Below the pieces are notes generated by a model that had not been told where the DNA came from, did not search any database, and saw nothing but the letters and a program-made list of their open reading frames with translations. A stretch of 64,000 nt of DNA. It comes from Pseudoselenomonas ruminantium. GTDB lineage: Bacteria; Bacillota; Negativicutes; Selenomonadales; Selenomonadaceae. Positions 27,511 to 46,831 of the stretch are shown here, in pieces. Where the stretch lies: NCBI RefSeq assembly GCF_900104055.1, contig NZ_FNJQ01000003.1:62001-126000 (forward strand), written 5' to 3'. The first letter of the stretch is position 1. Every line of letters begins with the position of its first letter. The translations under genes were made by a program, and so were the position numbers.

Positions 27511-27550
27511 CTATCTATATAAACCACTCTTCAGTAGTATTTTTGGCATT
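27511..27550 (-). promoter_or_regulatory. Island promoter element copy e (YaaW-like operon)
   Basis: On the minus strand AATGCCAAAA (27550-27541), 15 bases, then GGTTTATATAG from 27525. It stands 38 bases before the YaaW start codon. Confidence 0.75.
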
Positions 27551-28829: not shown

Positions 28830-28862
28830 AATAGACACATCCTTTCTTATACGCTTGAAATT

Positions 28863-28905
28863 CTCTCACTTTATTTAACCGTTCCTGGGAACAGTTTTTG
28901 GCATT
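28863..28905 (-). promoter_or_regulatory. Island promoter element copy d2 (proximal)
   Basis: Minus strand: AATG-type start GAAATGCCAAAA (core 28905-28896), 15 bases, GGTTAAATAAAGTGAGAG (28880-28863), upstream of the nuclease-like/glycine-zipper gene. Confidence 0.75.
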
Positions 28906-28934: not shown

Positions 28935-28978
28935 CCTTTCACTATATATAACCGTTCCTACGGATAGCTTTTGGCATT
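28935..28978 (-). promoter_or_regulatory. Island promoter element copy d1 (distal)
   Basis: Minus strand: AATGCCAAAA (28978-28969), 15 bases, GGTTATATATAGTGAAAGG (28953-28935). This is the best match to the consensus and is arranged in tandem with copy d2, 73 bases apart. Confidence 0.8.
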
Positions 28979-30093: not shown

Positions 30094-30110
30094 CACTCTC
30101 ACCGCCTTAT

Positions 30111-30743
30111 TTAACCAATCATAAACCTCAGGAATTCATCCGTGCTCTTTTTCTGGCCGGGCTTAGTATTGTTTACCAGAGTGTTAATATAGAACAGACT
30201 GGTTATATCGATAATATCAGAAGTTGCCGAAGTATTTGAATCTCCTCGATAATACTGGGCATATACCATGCAATCCACGTCAACATCTTTTCCAGCCTTA
30301 GCTGCGTAGGACATGGCAATCAAACTGCAGATGGTATTGCACTTCATACCAAAGGTCATATCAGCATAGATGCGGTCACCATCCTGGAAGTAATCGGAAA
30401 TCTCCTGGAAGTGACGACTGAAGGTCAGCGAATCCATCTCATCGCGTTGTTTCGTGTGGTCAGGTTCATAGATTTCTACGAAAGTAGCCTTTGCCTTATG
30501 GTCTTCCAGAATTTCCTCCATTTCTTTTCTCAAGATTTTATAGTTTTTTTCCGGATTAGTGGTCTGCGTCAGGGTGGTGATGATTAGTATATCATCCTTT
30601 TCATCTATGTTGGCATCCAGCAAATAGGAGATGGGTGCAAAATAATTTCTGTTACCCATGTCAAAATCACGACTTTGGTAGAGTACCCTTTTCTCTGGAT
30701 CATCAGGGGTCATCATAACCGTAGAAAAAAACACCTTTCGCAT
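30111..30743 (-). CDS. Stand-alone CARF-domain protein (TM1812-like)
   Basis: The 210-residue protein has a CARF/Rossmann pattern: strand MRKVFFSTVMM, IIITTLTQ region, and the diagnostic DGDRIYADMTFGMKCNT loop (D-x-T-x-G) that in TM1812/Csx1 proteins contacts cyclic oligoadenylate. No HEPN or other effector domain is attached. It could be a cOA sensor acting on the next gene, or a ring nuclease that ends the signal. ATG 30743 is favoured (GGAG upstream); 30758 is possible. Confidence 0.78.
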   Translation of the reverse strand: MRKVFFSTVMMTPDDPEKRVLYQSRDFDMGNRNYFAPISYLLDANIDEKDDILIITTLTQTTNPEKNYKILRKEMEEILEDHKAKATFVEIYEPDHTKQRDEMDSLTFSRHFQEISDYFQDGDRIYADMTFGMKCNTICSLIAMSYAAKAGKDVDVDCMVYAQYYRGDSNTSATSDIIDITSLFYINTLVNNTKPGQKKSTDEFLRFMIG

Positions 30744-30808
30744 TTCAGTCATCTCCATTTCGTAATCAATATCCTTCTAGGCATATATATTCTACAAAGC
30801 AATCGTCT

Positions 30809-31052: not shown

Positions 31053-31238
31053 TTACTTTTTCTCATCATCAAAAAGTTTGCCAACTTGATTCCCTATAGC
31101 AGCTCCACCGACTGCTGCTACCACTGTAACCGCTGCTGCCGGGATACCTACAGCTCCTCCCATAGCTGCGATTCCGATACCTCCAATAGACCGTCCAACT
31201 AAAACTCCGATGCCACCGCCAATAATTTCTTTCTTCAT
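31053..31238 (-). CDS. Glycine-zipper membrane peptide A
   Basis: The 61-residue peptide begins MKKEIIGGGIGVLVGRSIGG and is an almost uninterrupted glycine-zipper hydrophobic segment ending in KLFDDEKK. Such peptides can oligomerise in membranes. AAGGAGG precedes the ATG and island promoter copy b lies upstream. It heads the transcript carrying the 76-residue peptide, CARF and sigma-like genes. It is a near copy of peptide B at 31375-31557. Confidence 0.75.
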   Translation of the reverse strand: MKKEIIGGGIGVLVGRSIGGIGIAAMGGAVGIPAAAVTVVAAVGGAAIGNQVGKLFDDEKK

Positions 31239-31267: not shown

Positions 31268-31311
31268 CCTTTCACTTAATATAACCATTCCTAGTTACGA
31301 TTTTTGGCATT
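31268..31311 (-). promoter_or_regulatory. Island promoter element copy b
   Basis: Minus strand: AATGCCAAAA (31311-31302), 15 bases, GGTTATATTAAGTGAAAGG (31286-31268), upstream of peptide A and hence of the CARF and sigma-like genes. Confidence 0.8.
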
Positions 31312-31374
31312 TTATCAAAAATTTTTTGCTAACCTCCTGACCAGCTTCATACAATCTCCTATCAATCATCGGTA

Positions 31375-31557
31375 TTACTTCTCATCATCAAAAAGCTTGA
31401 CAACCTGATTTCCCATAGCAGCTCCACCGACTGCTGCTACCATTGTAACAATAGCCGCGGGGATGCCTACAGCTCCTCCCATAGCTGCGATTCCAATACC
31501 GCCAATAGCTCGACCTACTAAAGCTCCGATGCCACCGCCAATAATTTCCTTCTTCAT
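31375..31557 (-). CDS. Glycine-zipper membrane peptide B
   Basis: 60 residues, differing from peptide A at only about seven positions. The duplication includes the promoter, leader and ribosome site, with a period of about 319 bases. It has its own island promoter copy a. Conservation of the reading frame in both copies argues that the product is used. Confidence 0.75.
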   Translation of the reverse strand: MKKEIIGGGIGALVGRAIGGIGIAAMGGAVGIPAAIVTMVAAVGGAAMGNQVVKLFDDEK

Positions 31558-31586
31558 TTCAAGCGCCTCCTTAATAAGTTATTTAA

Positions 31587-31630
31587 CCTCTCACTTAATA
31601 TAACCATTCCCAGCTACGGGTTTTGGCATT
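31587..31630 (-). promoter_or_regulatory. Island promoter element copy a
   Basis: Minus strand: AATGCCAAAA (31630-31621), 15 bases, GGTTATATTAAGTGAGAGG (31605-31587), upstream of peptide B. Confidence 0.8.
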
Positions 31631-31681
31631 TCTTCAAAAATTTATGTTCATCACGCTGCACGCTCCTTTTTGCTCTATTAA

Positions 31682-31726
31682 CCCTTTCATCATATATAAC
31701 CATTCCTGTACTTTCGTTTTGGCATT
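31682..31726 (-). promoter_or_regulatory. Island promoter element copy c
   Basis: Minus strand: AATGCCAAAA (31726-31717), 15 bases, GGTTATATATGATGAAAGG (31701-31683). It faces only a tiny frame of 5-15 codons (31630-31665) before copy a begins, perhaps the remains of a third duplicated unit. Confidence 0.75.
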
Positions 31727-31773: not shown

Positions 31774-32589
31774 TCAATTTTTATCTATAATGCGCACCTG
31801 CCCCAACCCATGGGATGTCCAGCGACCTACCCCTGCAAATTCCGCATAAGCGGCAAGTACGGCCAAGATCCCCTTGTATGTATCCGAGAGATTATTCACC
31901 CCATAGGTGAACCTGCCTACAAAACATCTGGCGCTGCGCTGGGGAGATAGCTTAATCCAACAACTTTTCCCCTGCCAGGACAGTGGAAGAATAGCGGAGG
32001 CCGCTTCAGCTACTAACGTCCTCGATATATCCCCAGGCATCCTTAGCGCCGCCCACTTATCTGCCAATGAGCCGAATACATACTCTGGCAAGGGCCAGGG
32101 AAAATCATTTTTGCCTGACCTGAAGGTAGTAGCAGATTGAAAATCCATCGTTATAGATGATGGCAGAGCGCAGGAGAAGCACTCTGCCATCATTTCTGTT
32201 GGTTCTACTACTCCAGAATACTCACATAGTTCCGGGTCTGCATATACACGTTCCACATCCAGCTGCAGATTTCCTAAATAAATCTTATAACCTGGCTGCA
32301 AACTCAGAAATGCCTGCAAAACCTCATCACTCAATGCAGTCACACGCCATCTTAGCAGCTGTCCCTCCTTGATATACAGCCGATTGTTAGTTGCGCTTAT
32401 TTTTCCGTAGAATGCCAACTCTGCAGCGGTAAAAGGCTTGATTAACATTTGATTATGGATGTAGTCAGCCATTACTGGCGAGTAATCTTTTAATATTTTG
32501 AAACACAAGCCATGCATCTGCTGGCCATGATACAATGGCAAGCTGTCAGTGTTTAAAGCTCTCAGCTCATATACTATAGCACCAATCAT
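31774..32589 (-). CDS. cas6: Cas6 CRISPR endoribonuclease
   Basis: The 271-residue RAMP protein processes pre-crRNA at the repeat. Visible features are an N-terminal ferredoxin-like half with HGLCFKIL, the conserved SATTFRSGKNDFPWPLPEYV segment of Cas6 proteins, and the C-terminal glycine-rich loop GVGRWTSHGLGQVRI. The CRISPR repeat has a TACCGC/GCGGTA hairpin suited to it. Last gene of the effector operon. Confidence 0.88.
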   Translation of the reverse strand: MIGAIVYELRALNTDSLPLYHGQQMHGLCFKILKDYSPVMADYIHNQMLIKPFTAAELAFYGKISATNNRLYIKEGQLLRWRVTALSDEVLQAFLSLQPGYKIYLGNLQLDVERVYADPELCEYSGVVEPTEMMAECFSCALPSSITMDFQSATTFRSGKNDFPWPLPEYVFGSLADKWAALRMPGDISRTLVAEAASAILPLSWQGKSCWIKLSPQRSARCFVGRFTYGVNNLSDTYKGILAVLAAYAEFAGVGRWTSHGLGQVRIIDKN

Positions 32590-32610: not shown

Positions 32611-34416
32611 TTATTTTTTGGCAGCCAATTTACTGCCCTTATTTGAACTTGCTGTAACTAAGCATTCCCAATGCTCTAGCGAATTAAAAATCATTGAGCG
32701 CACCTCATCGACAGAGGTAACATCTTCTGTATTGGCATGATTGATTTGGTTGCGCTCCACACGAATGTTAAAATATTCCTTTAGACATACCAGCATTTCT
32801 TTATAATGATAGTTACTTTTGAGATAATACTTGCTATATAGGGATTCATAGCGAGCGGAGTGCTTGTTCCATTTATCATCCAAAACACTCAAAAATTCAT
32901 TGCGCACATCTTCGGCCATTTTCCCTTCACCATATTCCTCGTTAGGGATTGCAAACAAGTCATAGATTTGTTGCTCTTGCAGTTCGGCTATTCTATTGAC
33001 AATGTTTTCCAAAGCGATGTCATAGCAAAAATCATGAATGGACTTCTTTCTCTTTGTATTACGTTGGCCTTCATGGTGAATAGCCCGCAGGGCTTTCCCC
33101 AACATCGCATATTTCTCTTCAAAGTCCTCAAATGTTAACATTCTGCTTTTTAATAGAATGAAATCGTAATCTGCCTTTTTCAACGCATCGCAAAACGAAA
33201 CCACCTGAGGATACTTAGAGCTTTTCAAGTCTTCTGTATCTTTGTTTCCAGAATTAAATGCTAGAATATCTGCTTTTATGAATTCTGCTAAGGTCAAATG
33301 ATCAGCATCATTTTTCGAATATTTACTGTCTGTATAAGTAGCAATGAAATACTGCTGCCATGAACGTCCCTGCTTCCTGCCTTCTTTCTCGCAGTATAGT
33401 AAAACTCTGGGACTATCCGTGTAAGCTATTTTTTTATTTACCAAATACGACGGCAGCCACTCTGTACAAAGTGTCATAGCCTGTTGCAGAAAGCCCTTGT
33501 TGGTACACCAGCGGATAATATCAAATTCCGTGGCTTCCCCCTGAATCAGCGGCCCGTATTCATTTTGGAGAGTGGTAATGATACTGGCAAAGAGATTTTC
33601 CTGTAGTGTATCTCCATGATTTTCTTGGAAATCCTTCAAGTAGACGTTCAGTGTCTTCAGCTCATCCTTAATGAGACTTGTCCTGCACATCTTGATGGCA
33701 TCAGAGAAACGTTGCATGGCTTTCAGCAAATTGCCGAGTGCCTCTGTTTTCGGTGCTGTCCTGAAGTATTCCTGCAGGCCCTCCACACTACCGAATTTGA
33801 CGAATTCATCTGCACCGTTAATCAGGTTGAACAGCCCCAAGAGCGAGGTGGCATCAAAAACAGTCTGCCTTTCCGGGTCAGAATAGAGAACTTTGCCTAG
33901 CTCGATGCCGTTATACTGCAAAAGTTGCATTATCGTCAGCATTATCACGGAGTTATATCGGAATCCCCCTGTCATATCAGCATAGAGCCTTACCCTGGCA
34001 TTGGGATGCTCCTGGGCATAGGCCATTATCTGCCCCGCAATCTTTGTGACATTTCGCAAGGATTCGTCGATATTGTCCAAGCCGTCATAATATCCTATGC
34101 TGTGCAGTTTATCGGCCAAGCGCTCATCAGCCTCTATGAGCCGCTTCTTGAGGAAATTTATATGGGTGAGCATCCCATACTTCTCAGTCTTTGGAGCATC
34201 ATAAGTCTCCACCTTTTCACTGGACACCAAAAATACGGCATCTAAAGGATTGTCTCCCAACTCGCGCTGTATCGCGATGATGGCAGATTCATTGGTCTGT
34301 ATAGCCTTATAAGGCTTCCCCCCCACTCCCCAGTAGCGTATCGGCTTATCTATGCTCCTTTGCTGCACCAGGCTGACGAAGGCCAGCATGATATTATAAA
34401 CAGGCTTATTCGACAT
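32611..34416 (-). CDS. CARF-HEPN ribonuclease, Csx1/Csm6-like (TM1812 family)
   Basis: 601 residues. The N-terminal CARF domain has the loop RVRLYADMTGGFRYNS near residue 147. The C-terminal HEPN domain has the catalytic R-x4-H at about residues 555-560 (RNQINH). Cyclic oligoadenylate from Cas10 would bind the CARF part and switch on RNA cleavage, the classic type III collateral response. GGGGGG precedes ATG 34416. It lies within the effector operon, between the RAMP gene and cas6. Confidence 0.88.
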   Translation of the reverse strand: MSNKPVYNIMLAFVSLVQQRSIDKPIRYWGVGGKPYKAIQTNESAIIAIQRELGDNPLDAVFLVSSEKVETYDAPKTEKYGMLTHINFLKKRLIEADERLADKLHSIGYYDGLDNIDESLRNVTKIAGQIMAYAQEHPNARVRLYADMTGGFRYNSVIMLTIMQLLQYNGIELGKVLYSDPERQTVFDATSLLGLFNLINGADEFVKFGSVEGLQEYFRTAPKTEALGNLLKAMQRFSDAIKMCRTSLIKDELKTLNVYLKDFQENHGDTLQENLFASIITTLQNEYGPLIQGEATEFDIIRWCTNKGFLQQAMTLCTEWLPSYLVNKKIAYTDSPRVLLYCEKEGRKQGRSWQQYFIATYTDSKYSKNDADHLTLAEFIKADILAFNSGNKDTEDLKSSKYPQVVSFCDALKKADYDFILLKSRMLTFEDFEEKYAMLGKALRAIHHEGQRNTKRKKSIHDFCYDIALENIVNRIAELQEQQIYDLFAIPNEEYGEGKMAEDVRNEFLSVLDDKWNKHSARYESLYSKYYLKSNYHYKEMLVCLKEYFNIRVERNQINHANTEDVTSVDEVRSMIFNSLEHWECLVTASSNKGSKLAAKK

Positions 34417-34441
34417 ATATTGTCCCCCCTGCTATTTGCAG

Positions 34442-36133
34442 CTATACTTTCCTGGCTGTCGGCAGTACCCAGCGATATTGGAACGGCTTTTCCGGATCAT
34501 TAATACTCATGGCAGTGGTTTTATTTTCCCAATCAGGACGCGTGGTGTTCTTCCAGTCCAACATATGCGAAAGTTCGCCTTGAGCAATCTGATAACGGTG
34601 ATAATCCTCTTTGGACAAGCCAGACTTCAGTTTTTCTTCAAATTCTGCCACATACTTGGAAAAATCTGCTGATGTTTCAGCGGTATGCCACTGCCCGCTA
34701 TCATCAAAAAGCTGCTTGTAATAGGAATCCCCATCCAGTTTCAACATAGCTTCCACACGGATGCTACCAAGGCCTATAGATTTCCCCTGTCCAATTTTGA
34801 AGCAAATATCCTTATCTTTCTGAGCAAACTCAAAAACTTTCAACAACGCTCCCAACTCATCCCTGCTGAGTCGCTCAAAGCGTATCCTGCTTTTGAATAC
34901 CTGACCGGACTTTACCGGGTGTATAGGATGGGGGCACATCGTACTATCTTTCTGCTCCTGGTTTTTCCATGACATTCTCTTATGCCAGTACATCTTATAT
35001 CCGCGTATGCGGGCACCATTAGAATCCCAATGCATGATTTGCGTGGGATCATCCTGCTTCAGATAAAGCTGGAAAGATGTGGGTTTAGGATTACTGAGGA
35101 TCCGAGCATAGGCAAGATTTTCCTGAGCAGCCCTGCCGCTGGTGCAGACAGCATTCTCAAAAGAAAGCCTGCTTCCCCATAGCTCCTTACGGCCAAAAAT
35201 AGCATCGGTATAGTCGATAGTATCTGTCTGCAAGCCTTTTGGCACCGCCATGCCAATGGACTGCCTATAAGGTATGCGATAAAACCTGCCATAACCGAAA
35301 TGTCCTATATGTCCATTCTCTTCCATGAAGAAGCAGGGAGCAACGAAGTCAATTTCGGAATCCCCTGTAAAATCAACAGCCTCACCATTTCTCTTGCAAT
35401 ATGGAGATGTAAATATATCTACACCTTTGCGCGTCTCATCCGTTTTATAAGCTTCAACCACCTCCTGCTCCACCAAAACTTTTTGTGACCAGTTTGGCAG
35501 TTCATGGATAGTATAATGACTTTTCGGATTCCGCCCCCCTTTCATAGGCCCCGTATAAGTAGTCACACCGCTATTTTCCCAATATATGCTGGGAGATTTT
35601 GCATTAACCTCTGCTGCCCTGCCTTTCATCTCCTTTACGATGGTATATACCATGTAATATTGGTTTTCAACCTTGTTGTGAATCAAAAAGCCTGCCTGCA
35701 CATTCTCTTTCTTTACGCGAGATGTATATGCCTGGCGGAGATAGCATTTTTTTACGTCTCCCCCCTTCTTTGCAGCCATTGCACGGAAATACAAATGCTT
35801 GTCATTGAAGTCGGAATCTTCCTTATCGCTGCGCATGGCACCACAGGTCACTATCTTAAAGATATTCTTTACCATGCCGCGGATAGAGCTGCCCGGGATG
35901 ACAGGAACTCCATTAGGACTGAAAAACTCACTGCCACCGTTGCCCACGAAAATGCTTGTCATGGTTTTGATGGAAAGGCAAATGTAACCGCTTAATTTCC
36001 CATTTGCCAATACATGGCTGCGGTAGTTCTCTTGCCGCTCCTCATCAGATTCTGCCCCGCCGTCAAAGGGCGCAGGCAATACCTTTGGCGGCAGGGATAC
36101 GAAGTTATATGTGGCTGTTGCTTGCCTGGGCAT
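34442..36133 (-). CDS. RAMP-superfamily Cas7-like protein, type III-D associated
   Basis: The 563-residue protein has RAMP motifs: FVGNGGSEFFSPNGVPVIPG, then SSIRGMVKN (the Cas7 lysine/arginine region), and a second glycine-rich loop GQGKSIGLGSIRVEAML at about 440. The layout matches the large RAMP proteins of III-D loci (TIGR03986 type). It overlaps csx19 by one base (TGATG). It should line the crRNA backbone in the effector complex. Confidence 0.82.
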   Translation of the reverse strand: MPRQATATYNFVSLPPKVLPAPFDGGAESDEERQENYRSHVLANGKLSGYICLSIKTMTSIFVGNGGSEFFSPNGVPVIPGSSIRGMVKNIFKIVTCGAMRSDKEDSDFNDKHLYFRAMAAKKGGDVKKCYLRQAYTSRVKKENVQAGFLIHNKVENQYYMVYTIVKEMKGRAAEVNAKSPSIYWENSGVTTYTGPMKGGRNPKSHYTIHELPNWSQKVLVEQEVVEAYKTDETRKGVDIFTSPYCKRNGEAVDFTGDSEIDFVAPCFFMEENGHIGHFGYGRFYRIPYRQSIGMAVPKGLQTDTIDYTDAIFGRKELWGSRLSFENAVCTSGRAAQENLAYARILSNPKPTSFQLYLKQDDPTQIMHWDSNGARIRGYKMYWHKRMSWKNQEQKDSTMCPHPIHPVKSGQVFKSRIRFERLSRDELGALLKVFEFAQKDKDICFKIGQGKSIGLGSIRVEAMLKLDGDSYYKQLFDDSGQWHTAETSADFSKYVAEFEEKLKSGLSKEDYHRYQIAQGELSHMLDWKNTTRPDWENKTTAMSINDPEKPFQYRWVLPTARKV

Positions 36134-36714
36134 CACCTTGCATCTCCTTTCACGAAAACCGGCAATATTGCCTTAAACCTGTAGTCCACATACCCTGCCT
36201 GGGCAGTCTTCTCATTTATTCCTACATAACTACGGGTTTCTAATGCATAGTATTCTGCATCTTCATCTACTACCGGGAGCAGCATTTGCAGCTTGCGGTC
36301 ACTGTCAACCAGTCTCATGAAACCTTCCGCACACTCCTGAGACTCTGTTTTCCTTCCCCAAAATCTGGAGGCAGAATCTATATACTCAGACTCCGCTCCT
36401 TCGCCATCTTTGCGGTAACGGCCTTGAAAGCTGCCTCCCTGCTTCAACAGGTGAAGTTCTTCATTGTCATTGAACCCCCGCACTTCCAGCAGCAATCCAT
36501 CCCGTGGGACTGCCTTTGAAAAATGCAGCTGACCGCTTTCCCATTTTCCCCAACTAATGGCATCAATCTGCCAAAGGACAAAGAATCCCGTTTGAAAATC
36601 CAATTCCTGCAATTTTACCTGCAAGGCAGCTATGCTAGCAGGAATGGCTATATCTTTTATGAGGCTCTTGCCGGCTTTGATCTCCGTAGGCTTCAAAAGC
36701 GCTTCACGATTCAT
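36133..36714 (-). CDS. csx19: Csx19-like protein of type III-D systems
   Basis: The 193-residue protein has no catalytic motif I can see but sits in the position and size range of Csx19 (TIGR03984): between Cas7 genes, with a QIDAISWGKWESGQLHFS stretch and LLEVRGFNDNEELHLLK typical of the group by my recollection. ATGA overlap with the Cas7-Cas7 gene before it. Its role in the complex is not established. Confidence 0.7.
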   Translation of the reverse strand: MNREALLKPTEIKAGKSLIKDIAIPASIAALQVKLQELDFQTGFFVLWQIDAISWGKWESGQLHFSKAVPRDGLLLEVRGFNDNEELHLLKQGGSFQGRYRKDGEGAESEYIDSASRFWGRKTESQECAEGFMRLVDSDRKLQMLLPVVDEDAEYYALETRSYVGINEKTAQAGYVDYRFKAILPVFVKGDAR

Positions 36715-38099
36715 GCCCCTGCCTCCTTCATATTTATGAACGCATCGACAAATTCCTGCAACTTCCCAGCCTCTTCCGGCTGGATACTTGAGCCAGACAG
36801 GCGTGAGAATGGCTTACCTTTATAGTATAGTTTTGCCTCCAGACCACGCAGTCTGCCATAACCTATAGCTTTGCCGCTGCCAATGGCAATCCTTCCCAAC
36901 CAGGCATCCTTGAGCAGCAACAATGCCAGACCTATTTCCCAAGGCTGGGCATGATGGATTTCCCAGTGCATGGCGAGGGCACACTTATCCATATCCTTTT
37001 GCCAGACAGGCATCGAGGTAAACAGAGCTGAATCTATGGTGCCGCCTGTGAAGCGGTCTACTCTTATGCGTGTCTGCTGATAAGGCTGCACAGCATCGCT
37101 CAAGCGGATTTCATCCACCAAAAAGCGGCTGCGGGATTTTTTGGAAAGATGCTCCCGCATTTTCTGTGGGTCAGGCCCCATAAGGGATTCCAGCATATCC
37201 GTATTCTTTCCCAGGGATTGGAGTATGTACTCACATCGATGACGCAGCACTCCCTTAATACTGGAGCCAGGCACACACCAGTTCCCATCGCTGTCGCGCA
37301 TCATAATGGCATCAATTTTGCCATTCTCTTCCTCGCCGACGACCAGATGGGACTTATCGCTGTCACGAACCATAAGCCCCCCTTCCAGCAGAAAGTCTGC
37401 ATCTACTACAAAACTGTCTGCAGAATAGGCATGTTCAGAAGTATTTCTTTTGAAAGTTTTGTGTTGCCTAGGTGGCCTGTCCATAAAATAGGCTGCCGTA
37501 TCATCTGCATTTTGGAAGTCATACACATCTGTAGTTATATTCTCCAGAACGACCTTGCCAAAACCAATGGCTGTACGCGCTCCCAAATGAAACCCATCTG
37601 CTAGATGGTGCCCCAACCGCATAAGAGTGCTTTCCAGCAAGTCTCTGTCATTTTCATGGATATTTCGCAGAATAATTTCTGCCATAAAGGTGCCATGGGC
37701 TCCCTGATCGATGACCTCATAATCGAACTTGCCATGCTTGATACCAGTCCCCGTCAGTCCATCCAGATTGACGCTATCACGATGGACAAGAGCAACGTCG
37801 CTGAGCTTGATGTCATGGATGATGGTGGAGCTTTGCAGTTCCATTTCATAGGCGGAGGGCTGCTCCAAATCAGTACCGAAAAGCAGTGCCGCTGCCCGGG
37901 GATTCTCCGTCTCAACATATTGGCGCAACACACCTGCCAGAGAGGTGCCGGGGATAAAGGCATCGCCATTCTTATCCTTCATAATCTGAATATCTATCTG
38001 ATTGCCTTCCTCATGACCTCCCATACCTATCAGCAGCGGGGCCTTCAGCACTAGATTTCCCTCTATGCAGAGCTTGCCACGAATGCTTTCCTTATTCAT
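36711..38099 (-). CDS. Fused Cas7-Cas7 (Csm3-like) RAMP protein
   Basis: Two Csm3-like halves are visible in 462 residues. The first has IPGTSLAGVLRQYVE and GARTAIGFGKV; the second has VPGSSIKGVLRHRCEYIL and IGSGKAIGYGRL. Each half keeps the RAMP glycine-rich loop. A conserved aspartate for target-RNA cleavage is plausible near each N-terminal part but not certain. The start at 38099 has AAGGTGG seven bases upstream and overlaps csx10. Confidence 0.85.
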   Translation of the reverse strand: MNKESIRGKLCIEGNLVLKAPLLIGMGGHEEGNQIDIQIMKDKNGDAFIPGTSLAGVLRQYVETENPRAAALLFGTDLEQPSAYEMELQSSTIIHDIKLSDVALVHRDSVNLDGLTGTGIKHGKFDYEVIDQGAHGTFMAEIILRNIHENDRDLLESTLMRLGHHLADGFHLGARTAIGFGKVVLENITTDVYDFQNADDTAAYFMDRPPRQHKTFKRNTSEHAYSADSFVVDADFLLEGGLMVRDSDKSHLVVGEEENGKIDAIMMRDSDGNWCVPGSSIKGVLRHRCEYILQSLGKNTDMLESLMGPDPQKMREHLSKKSRSRFLVDEIRLSDAVQPYQQTRIRVDRFTGGTIDSALFTSMPVWQKDMDKCALAMHWEIHHAQPWEIGLALLLLKDAWLGRIAIGSGKAIGYGRLRGLEAKLYYKGKPFSRLSGSSIQPEEAGKLQEFVDAFINMKEAGA

Positions 38100-39702
38100 C
38101 ATCCCACCACCTTTCCAGCTTCTCGGCTTTACGACCATTGCGGAAGAACCAATGCCAATATTCATAGAAGAGCTTGTCATTCGTTTTCAATTCTTCCAAA
38201 GACAGCTTGTCATCGATGTCTGCCAGAACCTCGTGGATCTTCGGTGACAGCACACTTTGCCAATCATGCTTTTGATTATTGTAAGGCATTTGCGCAAGGG
38301 GAGCATTTTCCAGCAGTTCGCCCAGGCTTGTCCCGCTGACCTCTACTTTGCGCAGCATCCGGGTCAAGGGCGTACTCTCACCACCTTTTTCTGCCTCCAG
38401 GCTATTTTGCATATTACTGCGGCAGTAGGCACTCTTTTCGTCCAACATACTATCCAAACGTGCGAAGAGGTGATTGGCATCCTGTGGAAAATATTTTCTT
38501 GCCTGTTCCACATCTTCTGCGGCAAAAAGTCTGACAGCTTCCCGCATCTTCTTTTTCACAATCTCCTGGGCATACTTGCTTACTTGACTTGATTTGACAG
38601 CCTGTCGTGCCGGTCTTACCTTGTCTGGCGTTTTGGCATATTTCAACTTGGGGCACTGCCATACACGAACCTGCCCATATCCTTCCTCAGTACGGAGTCC
38701 GATACCCTCGTAGCAGAGCCGGATCAGATGCTTCCAGTCTTCATCGTTCCAATCATCTTCCTTCTGAATAATGAAGATAGTACCTGCAGCCAAAGCATTC
38801 AGCCTTGGACACTTCATCCCCCAGACGCCCACAAAGCTGTCAACTTTTTCAGCCTTGGAAAATATCTTCCGTTTCCCGCTCTGAATATGGAACGCCTCTC
38901 TTTGGCAGCACTCATTCATTGCCCTGGCGAATTCGTTCAATCCTTCTTGGGCATCATTGGATAGACCAGCAAGCAGCAGGGGCGTTTCCAGGCGCAGGCA
39001 GACACTTCTGCCCTCTGCCTTCTGCGCCACAGGTAAATCCTCTATCTCGCCTAACTCAATACTGCAACTGCCATACTGCGTGTATTGGGAACGACCTACA
39101 TGAGCCAGCCATACATTCTCCTGTAGCACCTTCATCAGCTTTTCCAGCGCTTCCTGATTGCCAAAGATATATCCTTCAAAGGACTGGCCAGGTGCTATTG
39201 ATTCGTAATTATAGATGCCACCCTTGATGGAACGTCCGGCCAGACGTTCTTTGCCATCCTGGCTGCCACTATCACTACGGCTCATATGCAGGGTGATGTT
39301 TTTCTGTATTTCCGTGGAGTAAATTTTTCCCTGCTCAATGGAGCCAAAGCCCCTAAGAGGCTTGTAGTTTGCCTCTGAATCCTGCTGCAGCAGGTCAATG
39401 ATGCTGTTTCCATCCTTGATTTTTTGCAAAGATAACGGCATGACCATGCTCCTGCATCCTGTAGTTTGGTTTACAGGATAGGCATCTACAAAGCGAAGCT
39501 TTTGGAAAAACAACTCTACAAAATCCGCATTCTCATGAGCTTTCTTTCCTAAGCCCGCCTTCTGGATATAGCGTCCTGCCAGTATTCCCCGCAGGACATT
39601 ACCAGAGAAATAATCATAGGTGGCGGTCATAACGTCGGTATTGCCCCTGGTGGAAAGAATAACCGGCGAAACCGTTTTGATTTTAATGGCCATCTGCCTC
39701 AT
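38092..39702 (-). CDS. csx10: Csx10-like (Cas5 group) protein
   Basis: The 536-residue protein begins with a RAMP strand (MAIKIKTVSPVILSTRGNTD) and contains DYFSGNVLRGILAGRYI and GIGLRTEEGYGQVRVW, as in Csx10 of type III-D complexes. It would cap the 5' handle of the crRNA. The C-terminal 170 residues are helical and could replace the missing small subunit; that is speculation. ATGA overlap with the upstream Csm3-like gene. Confidence 0.85.
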   Translation of the reverse strand: MRQMAIKIKTVSPVILSTRGNTDVMTATYDYFSGNVLRGILAGRYIQKAGLGKKAHENADFVELFFQKLRFVDAYPVNQTTGCRSMVMPLSLQKIKDGNSIIDLLQQDSEANYKPLRGFGSIEQGKIYSTEIQKNITLHMSRSDSGSQDGKERLAGRSIKGGIYNYESIAPGQSFEGYIFGNQEALEKLMKVLQENVWLAHVGRSQYTQYGSCSIELGEIEDLPVAQKAEGRSVCLRLETPLLLAGLSNDAQEGLNEFARAMNECCQREAFHIQSGKRKIFSKAEKVDSFVGVWGMKCPRLNALAAGTIFIIQKEDDWNDEDWKHLIRLCYEGIGLRTEEGYGQVRVWQCPKLKYAKTPDKVRPARQAVKSSQVSKYAQEIVKKKMREAVRLFAAEDVEQARKYFPQDANHLFARLDSMLDEKSAYCRSNMQNSLEAEKGGESTPLTRMLRKVEVSGTSLGELLENAPLAQMPYNNQKHDWQSVLSPKIHEVLADIDDKLSLEELKTNDKLFYEYWHWFFRNGRKAEKLERWWDDE

Positions 39703-40553
39703 TTACTCTTTCCCTCCTTGAACACATCCCTTATCAAGGGAGTACGTATATCTTTGTCACCTTGCAACATAAGACAGTCAATACATCCAAAGCCACGAGT
39801 TCGCTTAACTCCCGCATGGGTCAGATTCTTAAAAGCCAACGCCAATAATTTGAAATGACGCTCTGTACCGCCGAGAATCTCTATTCTCCCCTCAAAGTTC
39901 AGCCCCGCTTCCACTACACGCATATTATGGAGAGATCCATCTGCCGCCGTACCAGTCATCCTGTCCAATCTCGTTTGATAGCGCAGAGATGTATACTGTT
40001 CCAATACATCATTAGCGGTAAAAATCTCAGGATAGGCACTCTGCAAATACTGCCAATCATCCTTCATCTCTTCATAGCCAACAAGATATAAGTTCGGTAT
40101 GATAAGCCGGGCCTCCCCCTGACTGCCGTGGTGGAAAAGAGCCTCCAGCTCCCGCCGTAGTTCTGCACCGTTTCCCATTGGTGTATTCATTTCGGTCACT
40201 TCCAGGGCGCTCTCATACAAAAGCCCCTTCAGTCTTTTGGCAGGGAAATAAGGCAGCCCCACCTCATCATGGACAACCTCTGCATCCACGTTCACATCAG
40301 CCTGACCAGAGCCCAGATGCAACGGTGACAGGGTATGCACCCTTAGGGTAAAGGAATCATAGGTAATTTTCCCCATTTTAGCTTCGTTATCCTTCTCCTT
40401 GTTGCTACGCTTCAACGATGGTTCAGATACAGAATTTTCCTTTTTCTTTTCATGTGCATGTTGGGCTGCATTTTGCGCCTTGACTATGCGTTTTTGTTTT
40501 TCCTGCTCCCGCTGTTCCTTTTTGCTTACCTTTTTCTTATCCTTCCCTGCCAC
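39699..40553 (-). CDS. Csm3-like Cas7 protein with charged N-terminal extension
   Basis: 284 residues from GTG 40553 (GGGAGGTGG upstream, start inside the cas10 gene). The first 60 residues are extremely rich in Lys/Glu/Gln. The RAMP core follows: SPLHLGSGQADVNVDAEVVH, LPYFPAKRLKGLLYESAL and AGVKRTRGFGCIDCLML. It is the second gene of the effector operon, next to Cas10. Confidence 0.85.
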   Translation of the reverse strand: MAGKDKKKVSKKEQREQEKQKRIVKAQNAAQHAHEKKKENSVSEPSLKRSNKEKDNEAKMGKITYDSFTLRVHTLSPLHLGSGQADVNVDAEVVHDEVGLPYFPAKRLKGLLYESALEVTEMNTPMGNGAELRRELEALFHHGSQGEARLIIPNLYLVGYEEMKDDWQYLQSAYPEIFTANDVLEQYTSLRYQTRLDRMTGTAADGSLHNMRVVEAGLNFEGRIEILGGTERHFKLLALAFKNLTHAGVKRTRGFGCIDCLMLQGDKDIRTPLIRDVFKEGKSK

Positions 40554-42174
40554 TATTCTCCACCTCCCTGAATAAACAGAAATCCAGCATCTCAATCATA
40601 TCCAAATATGGTGTACGGTTCTCTGCCCATAGTTCCTTCTCGTAGGTTTTCCATGCTTCCACAGCAGGGAGGCGCATTTTGCTGTTCGGATTGTTGCGTA
40701 TCAGATAATCAAGCTGCTGCTTGAACTGAACCTGCTCGTGCCTGCCTGCGGCCAGGACTCTGCGCATTTCTTTCAACTTGCTCATGGGCATCTTGTGCGG
40801 ACCAAAATGTACCTCCTGCATCGCCAGCAACAGATTATCAAGTGCTTCCGGCATATCCCCGGAAGCATCTACCCGATAAGGGCCAAAGTGCATATTGCGC
40901 CCCAACACATCATGATATTCCTGCTTACGAATTTGTGACAGCTGAGGAGCTTGCTCCCCGTGAAGAATAGTAAAATCCAGCCAGCAGGAGGGAGCATCAT
41001 CCTGACGCATGCGTTTCTTTGCCTCACTGCACAACTGCTCGGTCATCTCATAACCTCTAAAGAATGGGTAGGAAGTAGGAAGAATAGCAATACCTCCACA
41101 GCTGCATATCCCATTTTCCTTCAGTTCTCTCATAACAAAAGCTGTAAATTGCAGGGCAAGCTTCGCATGGCAGACAAAAGTCATATCATCGCCACCCAAA
41201 ATCAAAGGACGAACAGGCAGCAAAGTTTCACCATCTGGACGCACAATCTTCTTTAGGAAGTGCCAATCATCATAGCATGACAAGATATCATCCACCAAGG
41301 CATTGAACGCACAGATAGTTTTCTTGCGAATCGAGATGGAAAGGTTTTTCCGTTGCGTAAGGGTACTGCATTCACGGAACTGCTTGCCCATATTATTGCC
41401 ATCTATGTGGACAACAGCCAGATAATCTTCTGTCTCCTTCTGACCCAGCTCGTCAAACTTCATAGGGAACGCCCATCCTCTCAGATAGTCATCCCTATCT
41501 TCTTCAGCAACAACGCTGCGTAGTTTGTCCAACAGCTCTTTCTCTGCTGGTGCTTCCCGTTCAGCAGTTTTCCTGTCAGCCAAAATTTTCGTCTCTATCT
41601 CCCAGGAATAGAACCGATTATCCTCTTTATCATAAACATTTGCAGTCTCACCATTGCTTGCACAGGACAAAGTCAGTCCTGTATACGGCAGAGATACCTC
41701 AGGAAACACAGTATTCTGTGCATTCTTCAATTCTTCGTGCAACAAATCCAGACCTGTCTTACCATCTGCATTGCCCAAGAAATTCCCATTCTTATCCAGA
41801 GAGATATTGCCAATGGCTGCACCGGTTTTCAATCCAGGGTACTCCACCAAAGCAATTTTCGTAAACGTGCTGACCACATCCCGCAACTTCTGTGTCTCTA
41901 TCTCCGGACGGAACAGCAAAAGCGCATTACCACCGCCGATATACCCCACACGACATGCAGTATACATTGACTCCCAATCCGGTTCTGCCACCTTAAGCCA
42001 GGTTTCTTCATCGATAGAGCCTGCGCCACATACCTCTTCCACTGCACGAATCAAAGCATCAGCAAAAAGATTCTCCACCAAATAGGAGGCACCAATGTTC
42101 GTTTTAAGCTGATTCCCGGAGAAAATATATTGCTGGATTGACCGTGTATCCAAAAGTATCGCCTTAAAATCCAT
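40537..42174 (-). CDS. cas10: Cas10, GGDD palm, no HD domain
   Basis: The 545-residue protein starts directly in the first palm-like domain (FKAILLDTRSIQQYIFSGNQ) with no HD nuclease in front. The cyclase motif ILGGDDMTF is at about 325-333 and a preceding metal-binding strand reads AVVHIDGNNMGK. An intact GGDD implies synthesis of cyclic oligoadenylates on target RNA binding; absence of HD implies no Cas10 ssDNA cleavage. ATG 42174 has GGGAGG upstream. First gene of the minus-strand operon, divergent from cas2. Confidence 0.93.
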   Translation of the reverse strand: MDFKAILLDTRSIQQYIFSGNQLKTNIGASYLVENLFADALIRAVEEVCGAGSIDEETWLKVAEPDWESMYTACRVGYIGGGNALLLFRPEIETQKLRDVVSTFTKIALVEYPGLKTGAAIGNISLDKNGNFLGNADGKTGLDLLHEELKNAQNTVFPEVSLPYTGLTLSCASNGETANVYDKEDNRFYSWEIETKILADRKTAEREAPAEKELLDKLRSVVAEEDRDDYLRGWAFPMKFDELGQKETEDYLAVVHIDGNNMGKQFRECSTLTQRKNLSISIRKKTICAFNALVDDILSCYDDWHFLKKIVRPDGETLLPVRPLILGGDDMTFVCHAKLALQFTAFVMRELKENGICSCGGIAILPTSYPFFRGYEMTEQLCSEAKKRMRQDDAPSCWLDFTILHGEQAPQLSQIRKQEYHDVLGRNMHFGPYRVDASGDMPEALDNLLLAMQEVHFGPHKMPMSKLKEMRRVLAAGRHEQVQFKQQLDYLIRNNPNSKMRLPAVEAWKTYEKELWAENRTPYLDMIEMLDFCLFREVENSGREG

Positions 42175-42421
42175 ATCTTTCCTCCCACCACTCAACTATA
42201 ATAAATCTTCAAAATTTACTGTCCTATATTTAATTAAGAATCTTCGACCTCTTTCAGCTAAATCCTGCCATCTGTGCCTGATATGACCACCTTTTGCCAT
42301 TGTATAGGTAATCCCCACTCTAGCTCTATCAGTCAAACCATTTCACAAAATATTCCCCATCTTTATCAAAAACAAAGGATAAGTTCAATCTTTGAAGAAT
42401 ATTCTTCAGGAGGCGAGACAA
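42175..42421. other. Divergent intergenic region between cas10 and cas2
   Basis: About 250 AT-rich bases that must hold the cas10 promoter (minus) and the cas2 promoter (plus). I could not pick out either with confidence. The island promoter element is absent here; TTTTGCCATT near 42292 resembles one half but lacks the second box. Confidence 0.5.
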
Positions 42422-42697
42422 GTGAAGTATATTATCTGCTATGATATCAAAGAAGACAAAATCCGCAGCCATGTAGTCAAATACCTAGAGGACCGAGCTT
42501 TTCGCATTCAGTTCAGTGTATTCTCCTGTAAATGTGATAACAAAGAAATCAAGAATATCTGGCAGGAACTGAAACAGATAACAGACGGCGCCACCAATCC
42601 ACTCCTGATGATTATTCCTGTATGCAAAGCCTGCGAAAAAGATATTCTGATGCACGGCCGACCACTAGAGGAAGACCGTCCTATTATTGTCGTGTAA
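42422..42697 (+). CDS. cas2: Cas2
   Basis: The 91-residue adaptation protein starts at GTG 42422 with AGGAGG eight bases upstream. The ferredoxin-like N-terminal strand YIICYDIKEDKIR carries the conserved aspartate; the C-terminus reads RPLEEDRPIIVV. It forms the integration complex with Cas1. It is separated from cas1 by the leader and the whole CRISPR array. Confidence 0.92.
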   Translation: MKYIICYDIKEDKIRSHVVKYLEDRAFRIQFSVFSCKCDNKEIKNIWQELKQITDGATNPLLMIIPVCKACEKDILMHGRPLEEDRPIIVV

Positions 42698-42996: not shown

Positions 42997-43459
42997 GTCG
43001 ACAGTACCCTACTACCGCTTGCGGTATCGTAACCTGCAAGGGTATCTGCTTCGTAGTACTTTCTCATGGTCGACAGTACCCTACTACCGCTTGCGGTATC
43101 GTAACTTCCTTCTTGACGTCCTGAGTGAATTCACTCATCGTCGACAGTACCCTACTACCGCTTGCGGTATCGTAACAGGTTCTCCTTCAGCATAGTTGGT
43201 ATGTTTCCTTGTCGACAGTACCCTACTACCGCTTGCGGTATCGTAACTGTGGATGCTTGTGCTACAATTTTAAAATTTGCTGTCGACAGTCCCCTACTAC
43301 CGCTTGCGGTATCGTAACGTCTCTACTTTAGTAGATGACGGACCACCATTGTTCGTCGACAGTCCCCTACTACTGCTTGCGGTATCGTAACACGTTTGCC
43401 ATAGTGATCAATCTCCTTTCAAATCGACAGTAGCCTATTAGCGCTTACGATATCCCCTA
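42997..43459 (+). CRISPR. CRISPR array, 37-bp repeats, six spacers
   Basis: Seven repeats begin at 42997, 43069, 43140, 43211, 43282, 43355 and 43423. The repeat begins GTCGACAGT, has the palindromic core TACCGCTTGCGGTA and ends TCGTAAC. Spacers are 35, 34, 34, 34, 36 and 31 bases. Repeats 5 and 6 carry a shared A-to-C change, repeat 6 one more, and repeat 7 is strongly degenerate, so the cas1-proximal end is the old end and new spacers enter next to the leader. Confidence 0.97.
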
Positions 43460-43496: not shown

Positions 43497-44477
43497 ATGG
43501 GTGTGCTTTATTTACTATCCAAAGGAGCAACTGTCCGCAAAGATGGCGGCAGGCTTGTAATTGAAAAAGAAAACCGGCTGGTTGGACGTATGCCCATCCG
43601 CTCGCTGACTTCAATAGTCGTAGGACCGGCGGCCAATATTTCTACGCCGGCTGTTTTTGCATGTCTGGAAAATAACATCCCCATTTTCTTCTTAAATAAG
43701 AAATGGCAGCTTCTAGGCCAGTTAGCCAATGAACATGCTTCTGTTGCCGTCATTAGGCAACAATTTGCCTGCCTGGAAGATTATGATATGTCCATGCAGT
43801 TAGCAAAATCGGTTGTCAGCGAAAAGATAAGGAATCAATATCGTCTTTTGAAGAGCTACACCCGTTCAAGCCAAAATTCTGCACTAACTAAGGCGCTGAA
43901 GATGCTGAAGGCCGAAAGGAGTAAAGTGGACACGGCAGATTCTGCTGACAGCCTGCGTGGCATCGAGGGAAACTGTGCCCAAAATTACTTTGCCGGTTTC
44001 GGCGCACTCCTCGACAACAGGACATGGCATTTCAAGGGACGTACCCGGCCGGCCACTGACCCGGCCAACGCCCTGCTTAACTTTGGCTATGCCTTTCTGG
44101 AACGTGAAGTACGCATAGCTGTCATTGCCCAAGGACTTGACACCCGCATAGGCTTTCTGCACAGCAACAATGATCGCAAGGACAGCCTGGTCTTCGACCT
44201 TATGGAACTGTTCCGTCAGCCGGTGATTGACCGCTTTGTGCTGAATCTGTTGCGGCTGCAGGTATATAAACCTCAGGATTTTGCCAAAGATGATGAAGAT
44301 ATCTGCCTTCTCAGCGACGAAGCCCGCAATGCCTGGTATCAAAAATACGAAGACTATATGGAAAAGACTTATCAGGAATACGATGGCCTATCGCCACGCC
44401 AGCTGATACAGAAACGGGTGGAAGCATTCCGTCAGGAGCTCCTGTATCCCACTAAACACGATAAAAAAAAACAGTAA
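43497..44477 (+). CDS. cas1: Cas1
   Basis: The 326-residue integrase keeps the active-site residues: Glu157 in RGIEGN, His222 in GFLHSNN and Glu237 in DLMELFRQP. Together with Cas2 it inserts new spacers. It starts 37 bases after the last degenerate repeat, so it is probably transcribed through the array or from a promoter inside it. AAGGA precedes the start. Confidence 0.95.
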   Translation: MGVLYLLSKGATVRKDGGRLVIEKENRLVGRMPIRSLTSIVVGPAANISTPAVFACLENNIPIFFLNKKWQLLGQLANEHASVAVIRQQFACLEDYDMSMQLAKSVVSEKIRNQYRLLKSYTRSSQNSALTKALKMLKAERSKVDTADSADSLRGIEGNCAQNYFAGFGALLDNRTWHFKGRTRPATDPANALLNFGYAFLEREVRIAVIAQGLDTRIGFLHSNNDRKDSLVFDLMELFRQPVIDRFVLNLLRLQVYKPQDFAKDDEDICLLSDEARNAWYQKYEDYMEKTYQEYDGLSPRQLIQKRVEAFRQELLYPTKHDKKKQ

Positions 44478-44486: not shown

Positions 44487-44512
44487 AGGTCTAACCGACC
44501 TATATTTTTTTT
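44487..44512 (+). terminator. Terminator after cas1
   Basis: Short AGGTC / GACCT stem followed by ATATTTTTTTT; it directly abuts the viperin promoter element. Confidence 0.65.
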
Positions 44513-44517: not shown

Positions 44518-44561
44518 AATGCCAAAAACCTTTCTTAAGCGCGGTTTTATCTATTAGAAGG
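44518..44561 (+). promoter_or_regulatory. Island promoter element copy g (viperin)
   Basis: AATGCCAAAA (44518-44527), 15 bases, GGTTTTATCTATTAGAAGG (44543-44561), 38 bases before the viperin start. First box is perfect; the second is diverged in the middle. Confidence 0.75.
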
Positions 44562-44598
44562 ACAAACAACCGCTCGATAAAAGAAAGGAGCCGTCATC

Positions 44599-45423
44599 AT
44601 GGCTTACAAAGTAAACCTCCACATCACCCAGAAATGCAACTACGCTTGCAAATACTGCTTCGCCCACTTCGACCACCACAACGACCTGACCTTGGGCCAG
44701 TGGAAACATATCATTGACAACCTTAAAACCAGCGGCCTCGTAGATGCCATCAATTTCGCCGGCGGTGAGCCGGTTCTGCACCGCGACTTCGCAGCAATCG
44801 TCAACTACGCCTACGATCAGGGCTTCAAGCTCTCCATTATCACCAATGGTTCCCTGATGCTGAATCCCAAACTCATGCCCCCGGAACTCTTCGCAAAATT
44901 CGATACCCTGGGAATCTCCGTTGACAGCATCAATCCCAAAACGCTCATAGCACTTGGCGCCTGCAACAACTCCCAGGAAGTATTATCCTACGACAAGCTG
45001 TCGCATCTGATAACACTTGCCCGTTCCGTCAATCCGACCATCCGCATCAAACTGAATACGGTCATCACCAATCTCAACGCGGACGAAGACCTCACCATCA
45101 TTGGCCAGGAACTCGACATCGCCCGCTGGAAAATGCTCCGAATGAAGCTTTTCATCCACGAAGGCTTCAACAATGCACCGCTATTAGTCAGCCAGGCTGA
45201 CTTCGATGGCTTCGTTGAACGACATGCCGAAGTATCCCACGATATCGTCCCCGAAAACGACCTGACCAGATCCTATATCATGGTGGACAATCAGGGCCGG
45301 TTACTGGATGACGAAACCGAAGAATACAAAGTGGTCGGTAGCCTGCTTGCGGAAGACTTCGGCACCGTATTCGATCGTTACCACTTTGACGAAGCTACCT
45401 ACGCCAGTCGCTATGCAGGTTAA
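44599..45423 (+). CDS. Prokaryotic viperin (radical SAM antiviral nucleotide synthase)
   Basis: The 274-residue protein has the radical SAM cluster motif CNYACKYCF (Cys13, 17, 20), FAGGEPVLH, IITNGSLML, GISVDS, and the viperin-specific C-terminal stretch: IKLNTVITNLNADEDL, ARWKMLRMKLF, DFDGFVERHAEVS, SYIMVDNQGRLLD and HFDEATYASRYAG, each matching animal viperin in order. Viperins convert a nucleoside triphosphate to its 3'-deoxy-3',4'-didehydro form, which stops viral RNA synthesis. GGAG precedes ATG. No nucleotide kinase is adjacent. Confidence 0.92.
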   Translation: MAYKVNLHITQKCNYACKYCFAHFDHHNDLTLGQWKHIIDNLKTSGLVDAINFAGGEPVLHRDFAAIVNYAYDQGFKLSIITNGSLMLNPKLMPPELFAKFDTLGISVDSINPKTLIALGACNNSQEVLSYDKLSHLITLARSVNPTIRIKLNTVITNLNADEDLTIIGQELDIARWKMLRMKLFIHEGFNNAPLLVSQADFDGFVERHAEVSHDIVPENDLTRSYIMVDNQGRLLDDETEEYKVVGSLLAEDFGTVFDRYHFDEATYASRYAG

Positions 45424-45878: not shown

Positions 45879-45931
45879 ATACCTTGGTTTACAACATTTT
45901 TTACACACTTCAATTTCATATTTTCATCATG

Positions 45932-45957
45932 CAGACCAGCCGGGTCTGTATTTTTTT
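45932..45957 (+). terminator. Terminator upstream of island promoter copy h
   Basis: CAGACC / GGGTCTG stem followed by GTATTTTTTT, again immediately before an island promoter element. Confidence 0.7.
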
Positions 45958-45964: not shown

Positions 45965-46008
45965 AATGCCAAATATACATCATCCACCTGGTTATATATA
46001 GTGAAAGC
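45965..46008 (+). promoter_or_regulatory. Island promoter element copy h
   Basis: AATGCCAAAT (45965-45974), 15 bases, GGTTATATATAGTGAAAGC (45990-46008), 37 bases before the next start codon. Confidence 0.78.
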
Positions 46009-46044: not shown

Positions 46045-46692
46045 ATGGATAATCAGGAACTCCAATATGCGGGCTGTCATTTCGATGTTGTTTTCACCGC
46101 ATATTCCCTTGCCTATATGCAGTCAGAAAGCATTCCTCAGACAGAAGCTCTGCAAATTATTGCCAAATCCCTGCCCATGTTCTTCAATTCCTACTCCGGC
46201 AAAGACCATTTTCTTCTCAGCAATAAAAGTGACCTAGGCATCACGTGCAAATGCAGTTATACAAAAGGAAAAATTTTCACTATTAATATCAACTTTGTAT
46301 TCAGACTTTCCTCAGAAGACTTATTTTTTTCCTATAACGACCAAAAAGTTCACCTTTTCTATGCACCAGGTCACTTTGCATCTTTTCCCGGAGGAACTCA
46401 GCCACAGCGCCCGCGAAAAGAAAGTTCCTTATTTAAGAAGTACAAAAAAAAGAAAAAATATCCCCGCGTTGTCTGCGAAGCATCCATAAAAATGGATACC
46501 AAGCCCAGAAAATGCATTCCTGCCGATGGTTTCGTTACCGTACTTTCCTTCCTAGATAAGCTTATAGGCAAGAAGGATAACGACGATCTCATACTAACAG
46601 ATATCATCACACTTGCCCTTAGTCACTATATGCTGGATGATGTACTACAACTTGAAATAATCGCAGCTCCTATTGCAGTCCATCGGATATGA
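46045..46692 (+). CDS. Unknown 215-residue protein under the island promoter
   Basis: AAAGGAG precedes ATG 46045. The product (starting MDNQELQYAGCHFDVVFTAY) is soluble, with a beta-rich first half, a very basic loop (FKKYKKKKKYPR near residues 130-142) and a helical end. I recognise no family. The shared promoter and position next to viperin make it a candidate defence effector; the basic loop hints at nucleic-acid binding. Confidence 0.7.
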   Translation: MDNQELQYAGCHFDVVFTAYSLAYMQSESIPQTEALQIIAKSLPMFFNSYSGKDHFLLSNKSDLGITCKCSYTKGKIFTININFVFRLSSEDLFFSYNDQKVHLFYAPGHFASFPGGTQPQRPRKESSLFKKYKKKKKYPRVVCEASIKMDTKPRKCIPADGFVTVLSFLDKLIGKKDNDDLILTDIITLALSHYMLDDVLQLEIIAAPIAVHRI

Positions 46693-46709: not shown

Positions 46710-46734
46710 ACAGGTCAATATGACCTGTATTTTC
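46710..46734 (+). terminator. Terminator after the 215-residue gene
   Basis: ACAGGTCA / TGACCTGT perfect stem with a three-base loop, followed by ATTTTCC. Confidence 0.75.
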
Positions 46735-46831
46735 CCCAAAAATGCCAAAAACAAAACTGAAAGTTCATACCTACGAAATCATGTTTTGCGACAACTATAA
46801 TTTGGCCAAAAATTTTATTTGTTTTCATAAA

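Follow-up and report, generated by a model that had tools for sequence, protein, structure and literature searches.

Why does a viperin gene lying in a type III CRISPR island carry a promoter-like element of its own, and what might switch that element on? Enzymes of the viperin family produce nucleotide analogues by which viral transcription is halted, and in animals viperin expression is interferon-induced. We addressed the question in a 64,000-nucleotide stretch of Pseudoselenomonas ruminantium DNA (here called the window), in which positions 44518-45423 comprise the viperin gene and the two-box element ahead of it. A sequence-only reading of the window had placed viperin after cas1 in a type III CRISPR island, had given it a copy of an element found before small membrane peptide genes near a CARF gene, and had proposed that it is induced by CRISPR signaling through a pair formed by the CARF protein and a sigma-like neighbor. 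Our search of the open-access literature, a scope that leaves several key papers outside, found no description of a link between viperin and CRISPR signaling.

The identity and the setting of the gene were both confirmed. Its product scored 266.5 bits against NCBIfam NF038283, passing the curated threshold of 180 bits, matched the PADLOC pVip model at 1.7e-74, and contains the motif CNYACKYC, which we take to be the radical SAM CxxxCxxC motif of viperin. The gene follows cas1, as had been read, and is surrounded by type III-D genes (Table 1). Cas10d, Csx10 (Cas5-like), Csx19, and several Cas7 proteins were all detected using PADLOC, on which the III-D assignment is based; the match to the NCBIfam Csx10 model (TIGR02674) stays below its cut-off. 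Both marks of cyclic oligoadenylate signaling are found in the window, namely the GGDD motif of Cas10, which is intact (LGGDDMTF), and a CARF-HEPN effector (PADLOC, 3.9e-147). Because Cas10 keeps this motif, cyclic oligoadenylate signaling is likely. The open reading frame (ORF) adjoining the array is presumably cas2-like; it matches the ORFs near cas1 in G203, G152, and G191. No match was obtained in Pfam, NCBIfam, or PADLOC for the 215-aa protein encoded at 46045-46692 or for the 336-aa protein, and none in Pfam, the sole library scanned in this case, for the 82-aa neighbor of jukA. A match to viperin was present in 80 plasmid records, and many of the 30 listed were plain radical SAM proteins.

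Table 1. Features of the type III-D island in the window, by position (aa, amino acids; nt, nucleotides)
Feature	Position	Strand	Basis or remark
JukA homologue (anti-jumbo-phage sensor family)	26748..27473	-	PADLOC 6.8e-76
Element before jukA (GGTTTATA, one base more before TATA)	27517..27548	-	
336-aa protein, glycine/alanine-rich C-terminal half, unclassified	27828..28838	-	
Element, one mismatch, before 336-aa gene	28873..28903	-	
Element, exact, upstream of the copy at 28903	28946..28976	-	
CARF partner, 353 aa, unclassified; candidate regulator with putative HTH-like C-terminus	29041..30102	-	
Stand-alone CARF protein, 215 aa, sensor candidate	30111..30758	-	PADLOC
61-aa glycine-zipper-like peptide	31053..31238	-	Pfam match below cut-off
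Element, exact, before 61-aa peptide gene; heads run leading to CARF	31279..31309	-	
60-aa glycine-rich, membrane-like peptide	31375..31557	-	
Element, exact, before 60-aa peptide gene	31598..31628	-	
Element, exact, upstream of the copy at 31628	31694..31724	-	Terminator-like hairpin 31759-31740 ahead
cas6	31774..32589	-	
III-D complex genes (Cas7-like, Csx10, Csx19) and Csx1-like effector	32611..40595	-	
CARF-HEPN Csx1-like effector	32611-34416	-	
cas10 (III-D), GGDD	40537..42195	-	PADLOC, motif
cas2-like ORF adjoining array	42392..42697	+	Matches ORF near cas1 in G203, G152, G191
CRISPR array, 7 repeats, last degenerate	42998..43453	+	Start-to-start spacing 68-73 nt
cas1	43497..44477	+	Precedes viperin
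Terminator-like hairpin and T run, between cas1 and viperin element	44487..44512	+	Weak
Viperin element, TGCCAAA-N16-GGTTTTAT, one mismatch from consensus	44520..44550	+	First base to ATG 79 nt
Viperin (prokaryotic viperin, pVip; radical SAM)	44599..45423	+	274 aa; NCBIfam, PADLOC, motif
Element, exact, before 215-aa gene	45967..45997	+	Terminator-like hairpin 45929-45951 ahead
215-aa gene under element	46045..46692	+	ORF

The element was traced from repeats in the island and has the core TGCCAAA-N16-GGTTATAT. Across the 3.2-Mb genome, all five exact matches at spacings of 15 to 18 fell in the island, as did all seven obtained at spacing 16 when a single mismatch was tolerated; the site before jukA, with a spacing one base longer, is the eighth in the island. 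When two mismatches were allowed, 14 further sites appeared in the genome, 13 of them outside the island, and a reversed control pattern gave 5 sites. In fifteen Markov versions of the window, no site came within one mismatch of this core. Using a scoring matrix built from 17 sites, with viperin sites excluded, we obtained 41.1 bits for the viperin copy in the window; the best site in six Markov-randomized 64-kb windows reached 12.0 bits, and two of the six had no site of at least 5 bits. The viperin copy does resemble those ahead of the peptide genes, which lie on the opposite strand at a distance of about 13 kb, and that viperin has its own copy of the island element is confirmed. When 22 sites of the window's genome and of two relatives (G203 and G152, described below) were aligned, the consensus was aaTGCCAAAa-N9-AGGA-N2-GGTTATAT-N2-aGTGaaAGg, and a T run was conserved as well; by eye, dyad symmetry is absent from it. 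The alignment leaves out window site 32623, G203 site 18474, and G152 sites 31971 and 17018, and the matrix leaves out the same four, G152 sites 18265 and 31691, and three viperin sites. A binomial test of the placement of element copies is optimistic because some of the copies are recent duplicates.

The first base of the element lies 71 to 79 nt from the start codon in the window (six sites, for genes directly behind an element), 70 to 75 nt in G203 (six sites), and 72 to 81 nt in G152 (six sites, weak ones included). A pattern scan found no sigma-70-type pattern between cas1 and viperin. The hairpin located there has a folding z score of -1.8, with 10 of 200 shuffles equally stable, and terminator-like patterns numbered 5 in the scanned region versus 4.9 in shuffles. 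No element within two mismatches was found upstream of the cas10 operon, which would suit a constant sensor combined with inducible effectors; the site at the start of cas6 (10.0 bits) is within noise.

For comparison, we surveyed 300 genomes of the class, the source genome of the window being included in all counts. A similar CARF gene was detected in 11, a viperin in 5, and an exact element match in 10, and the reversed control pattern occurred once each in 5. Among the 10 matching genomes, an exact element lay beside such a CARF gene only in the window, G203, and G152; the other seven had one or two matches each, those of G111 being on different contigs. G203 represents another genus of the same family. 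Its nine sites within one mismatch of the core all fall in the island, where the element precedes the 336-aa gene, viperin (two copies), jukA, csx20, and peptide genes, and the Csx20 ring nuclease gene stands behind an exact element. The G203 viperin is 83% identical to that of the window, and its two sites scored 44.0 and 41.2 bits. Between the viperin promoters of the window and G203, the boxes are identical at 7/7 and 7/8 positions, with identities of 56% in the spacer, 33% upstream, and 56% downstream. In G203, the slot after cas1 is filled by a peptide gene that likewise has the element ahead of it.

G152 belongs to the same genus as the window but has a different III-D complex (Cas10, 43% identical); its CARF protein is 48% identical and its viperin 85% identical to those of the window. 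Of its three sites within one mismatch of the core, two belong to the island, and the 336-aa gene recurs with a weak copy. The G152 viperin is part of a cas6-viperin-csx20 run headed by a weak element site (20.3 bits), and a degenerate copy 72 nt before the gene itself scored 12.6 bits, near noise. The position of viperin varies among the three genomes: after cas1 in the window, between the CARF partner gene and the 336-aa gene in G203, and after cas6 in G152. In G057, from a third genus, the element takes a variant form (TGCCGAA-N16-RGATATA), for which all 8 exact matches and 10 of the 11 matches in total fall on one strand in the 16 kb that precede CARF. One of these copies stands ahead of a 75-aa gene leading into CARF, and several have a common spacer, which suggests duplication. 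Elsewhere the variant was scattered (six matches in G191 and three, one of them exact, in G278), and the reversed control gave three matches in G057.

Four of the five class viperins (window, G203, G152, and G191) lie in III-D islands, and three of these four have a copy of the element. A matrix scan found no element at the G191 viperin; the G278 viperin, with an HmaC-like gene nearby, has neither a CRISPR gene nor an element in the 17 kb examined. At the other viperin loci, the element is clear in G203, degenerate in G152, and absent in G191 and G278.

Given the island-private element, the viperin copies in relatives, and the G057 cluster, a CARF-linked regulon including viperin is well supported by these sequence comparisons. 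We infer that cyclic oligoadenylate drives this regulon. Our main reading, to which we assign a probability of roughly 0.6, is that viperin belongs to a private regulon of the III-D island in which the CARF protein and its partner would read cyclic oligoadenylate. The proposed induction of viperin by CRISPR signaling is supported in part, by its own copy of an island-private element, which is also present (in one case degenerate) at two viperins that have moved; the part assigned to cyclic oligoadenylate stays presumptive. Several points weigh against the main reading: the partner shows no recognized DNA-binding domain and differs strongly among the genomes that share the element, the protein after CARF in G057 escapes the partner profile, most CARF-bearing genomes have no site above noise in the stretches examined, the G191 viperin lacks the element, the G152 viperin copy scores near noise, terminator-like hairpins are no commoner than in shuffles, and some element copies are recent duplicates.

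Under the main reading, target RNA would activate Cas10, which would then produce cyclic oligoadenylate; the stand-alone CARF protein would bind this signal and, with its partner, start transcription at the element. The products might act jointly, viperin through nucleotide analogues directed against viral transcription, and JukA and the peptides at phage vesicles or membranes, where general knowledge of these families places them. An element-driven peptide gene lies ahead of the CARF and partner genes, and a scan showed no terminator-like pattern between that gene and CARF, so that the loop may also reinforce itself. If this is correct, a trigger for a bacterial viperin would be at hand, innate effectors, viperin among them, would be turned on by CRISPR and hence by adaptive immunity, type III signaling would have a protease-free transcriptional arm, and the motif would provide a handle for finding further effectors. 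Csx20 is reported as a cA4 ring nuclease (PMC12409355); as its gene in G203 also stands behind the element, it would provide negative feedback.

The element could also be a real shared promoter under other control, served by the housekeeping sigma factor with an activator or by a general stress- or phage-sensing regulator, with CARF merely its neighbor. This would agree with the overlap, noted by eye, between the second box and housekeeping -10-like sequences (TATATT and TATAAA), and with the Pfam searches, in which neither the partner nor its relatives had a recognized DNA-binding domain. It would also agree with the six of 11 CARF-bearing genomes that had no site above noise in the stretches examined (five without a site of at least 9 bits, and G130 with one of 10.7 bits, which is noise). 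The restriction of exact matches beside CARF to 3 of the 300 class genomes and the clustering of the G057 variant before CARF speak against such control, and we consider it unlikely.

The CARF protein and its partner were compared across the 11 genomes. The CARF protein is covered by CARF models along its 215 aa and has no Pfam match; no CARF gene was found on plasmids, and 3 of the 11 CARF matches (G090, G177, and G273) have one stop inside the aligned stretch. An unclassified protein of 285 to 362 aa follows CARF at a distance of at most 74 nt in 9 of the 11 genomes. The corresponding protein of G130 lies 645 nt off on the other side of CARF and was found using a profile built without G130 (1.1e-16); in G057, CARF is followed by a 642-aa protein that has no Pfam match and was missed by the partner profile. 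The nine rows of the partner alignment (A2) were chosen for their place beside CARF, and similarity searches support only in part that the nine partners form one family. Links were obtained with phmmer for G114-G130-G090, G273-G077, G294-G152, and window-G203, leaving G177 alone; blastp linked the window partner to G114 (7e-11, in a small database), a link that phmmer did not give. Relatives of the window partner were present in 2 of the 300 class genomes, its own included. In 398 genomes of the phylum, there were only its own genome and two marginal local matches (E values of 0.004 and 0.008), and in a sample of 299 phylum genomes the partner profile matched its own genome only, the other profile rows being unmatched as well. 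Searches of our contig collections gave one locus in genome_contigs and none in viral_contigs.

The pair of CARF and a sigma-like protein named in the sequence-only reading stands as far as the CARF gene, which is certain from PADLOC; the sigma nature of the neighbor was unsupported in profile searches. For a sigma-70 nature of the partner, neither Pfam, where it has no match, nor phmmer or a profile search against the PDB gave support. Searching its own genome with Sigma70_r2 gave four matches at E values of 0.001 or less, none of them on the contig of the window. No significant match to sigma factors was obtained with hhalign in two runs of the partner profile (4 proteins, and 29 proteins from 33 loci). 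The best alignments to RpoD, which were not significant, fell in sigma region 2 in the 4-protein run and in the HTH of region 4 in the 29-protein run. In the latter run, RpoD scored 14.2, versus 16.3 for the unrelated Csx19, 15.6 for the 336-aa protein, and 24.6 for the 642-aa protein of G057; because unrelated control proteins score as high or higher, these alignments are no evidence. AlphaFold2 models of the partner were poor (mean pLDDT of 51, both at full length and for residues 1 to 180), and structure searches with the whole model were uninformative, so that these results speak neither for nor against a sigma fold.

Alternatively, the partner may itself be an effector, such as a CARF-gated toxin, the element then being a constitutive or separately controlled promoter. 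Many CARF-linked proteins of type III loci are effectors, and the partner has no recognized regulator domain; between the window and G203, moreover, the partners are 59% identical versus 91% for the CARF proteins. An HTH-like segment of 21 residues at the partner C-terminus argues the other way, with 8/21 residues identical between the window and G152 against 16% for the rest (19% overall), but the argument is weak because the same segment of G294, where no element was found, also gives 8/21. In addition, clusters of the element need a reader, for which CARF and its neighbor are the common candidate. We regard an effector role of the partner as distinctly improbable.

Returning to the regulon read out by CARF and its partner, we put forward a bolder version of it, tentatively and with more doubt than confidence: CARF and its fast-evolving partner might constitute a new two-protein initiation factor, diverged sigma-like or equivalent, that is gated by cyclic oligoadenylate and opens a private class of promoters, so that one CRISPR hit would induce an antiviral battery including viperin. 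If true, such a factor would be a bacterial parallel to interferon-induced viperin.

Known systems place this proposal in context. In the CalpL-CalpT-CalpS system of type III CRISPR, a SAVED-Lon protease frees a sigma factor. Calp leads from cyclic oligoadenylate to a transcriptional response by a small type III gene set (PMC11229360 and PMC12751052), and the locus proposed here would be like it in this respect. Unlike Calp, its sensor candidate is a stand-alone CARF protein without a protease, its partner is not recognizably a sigma factor, and the genes presumed to be its targets lie within the island itself. No Lon or SAVED match was found for CARF and its partner in Pfam, NCBIfam, or PADLOC, or for 20 proteins of the window in Pfam. 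Csa3 is described as a CARF-based transcription factor that binds cyclic oligoadenylate (PMC8699464 and PMC8844856). In Csa3 the CARF domain is fused to a winged HTH, whereas the window has two genes, for CARF and for a candidate DNA-binding protein, and its putative targets are defense effectors. Calp and Csa3 already couple cyclic oligoadenylate to transcription, and the window would be a further variant, protease-free and with its targets at hand. The viperin belongs to the same enzyme family as known pVips (NCBIfam and PADLOC); unlike them, it lies among type III-D genes, and the element ahead of it recurs across the island. Juk is presented as JukA with varied effectors (PMC13282480). The window likewise has a JukA homologue, under the element; neither of its neighbors, the 336-aa and the 82-aa protein, matched a model that would mark it as JukB or another Juk effector. 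Unlike in Juk, the promoter-like element ahead of this jukA is one that CRISPR-island genes carry as well. The jukA gene stands under the element of the CRISPR island in both the window and G203, and a link between anti-jumbo-phage defense (JukA) and CRISPR signaling is possible.

Several observations concern the history of the repeated blocks. Both peptide genes and their elements (31047-31643) form a recent 278-nt tandem duplication with copies 88% alike. At 46711-46752 there is a decayed cassette, consisting of the hairpin CAGGTCAATATGACCTG and the first box, with the second box absent; the same hairpin also precedes an element in G152. We give very little credence to the idea that hairpin and element together are the end of a travelling cassette that moves genes by recombination, whose spread would say little about induction: blocks before many unrelated genes, the decayed copy standing alone, the duplicated peptide genes, and the common spacer of several G057 copies would suit it, but the boxes are conserved between diverging spacers and flanks, and start codons follow at an almost unvarying distance, so that a promoter fits better than a recombination site.

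Other observations were made at individual loci. In G057 (L042:795-14700), about ten copies of the variant lie upstream of CARF, some of them before small membrane-like proteins. The III-D locus of G191 (L058:9501-14228) has a WYL-domain gene, and its viperin directly precedes two CARF-HEPN genes, one of which is fused to Csx20. One contig of G090 ends in tandem repeats with a unit of about 122 nt (L046:1-360) that contain an element-like motif; two copies of this motif within the 122-nt repeat were left uncounted. In G203 (L010 and L011 joined; 25396-27003, 31141-31416, and 34861-35136), csx10 is split into two ORFs, by either an assembly error or a real break, and a 91-aa cas2-like ORF occurs twice. 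Segment 45678-45872 of the window repeats a 64-nt leader-like sequence (first copy at 42770-42833, 89% alike) and continues with two degenerate CRISPR repeats, which places viperin between the array and an apparent array remnant.
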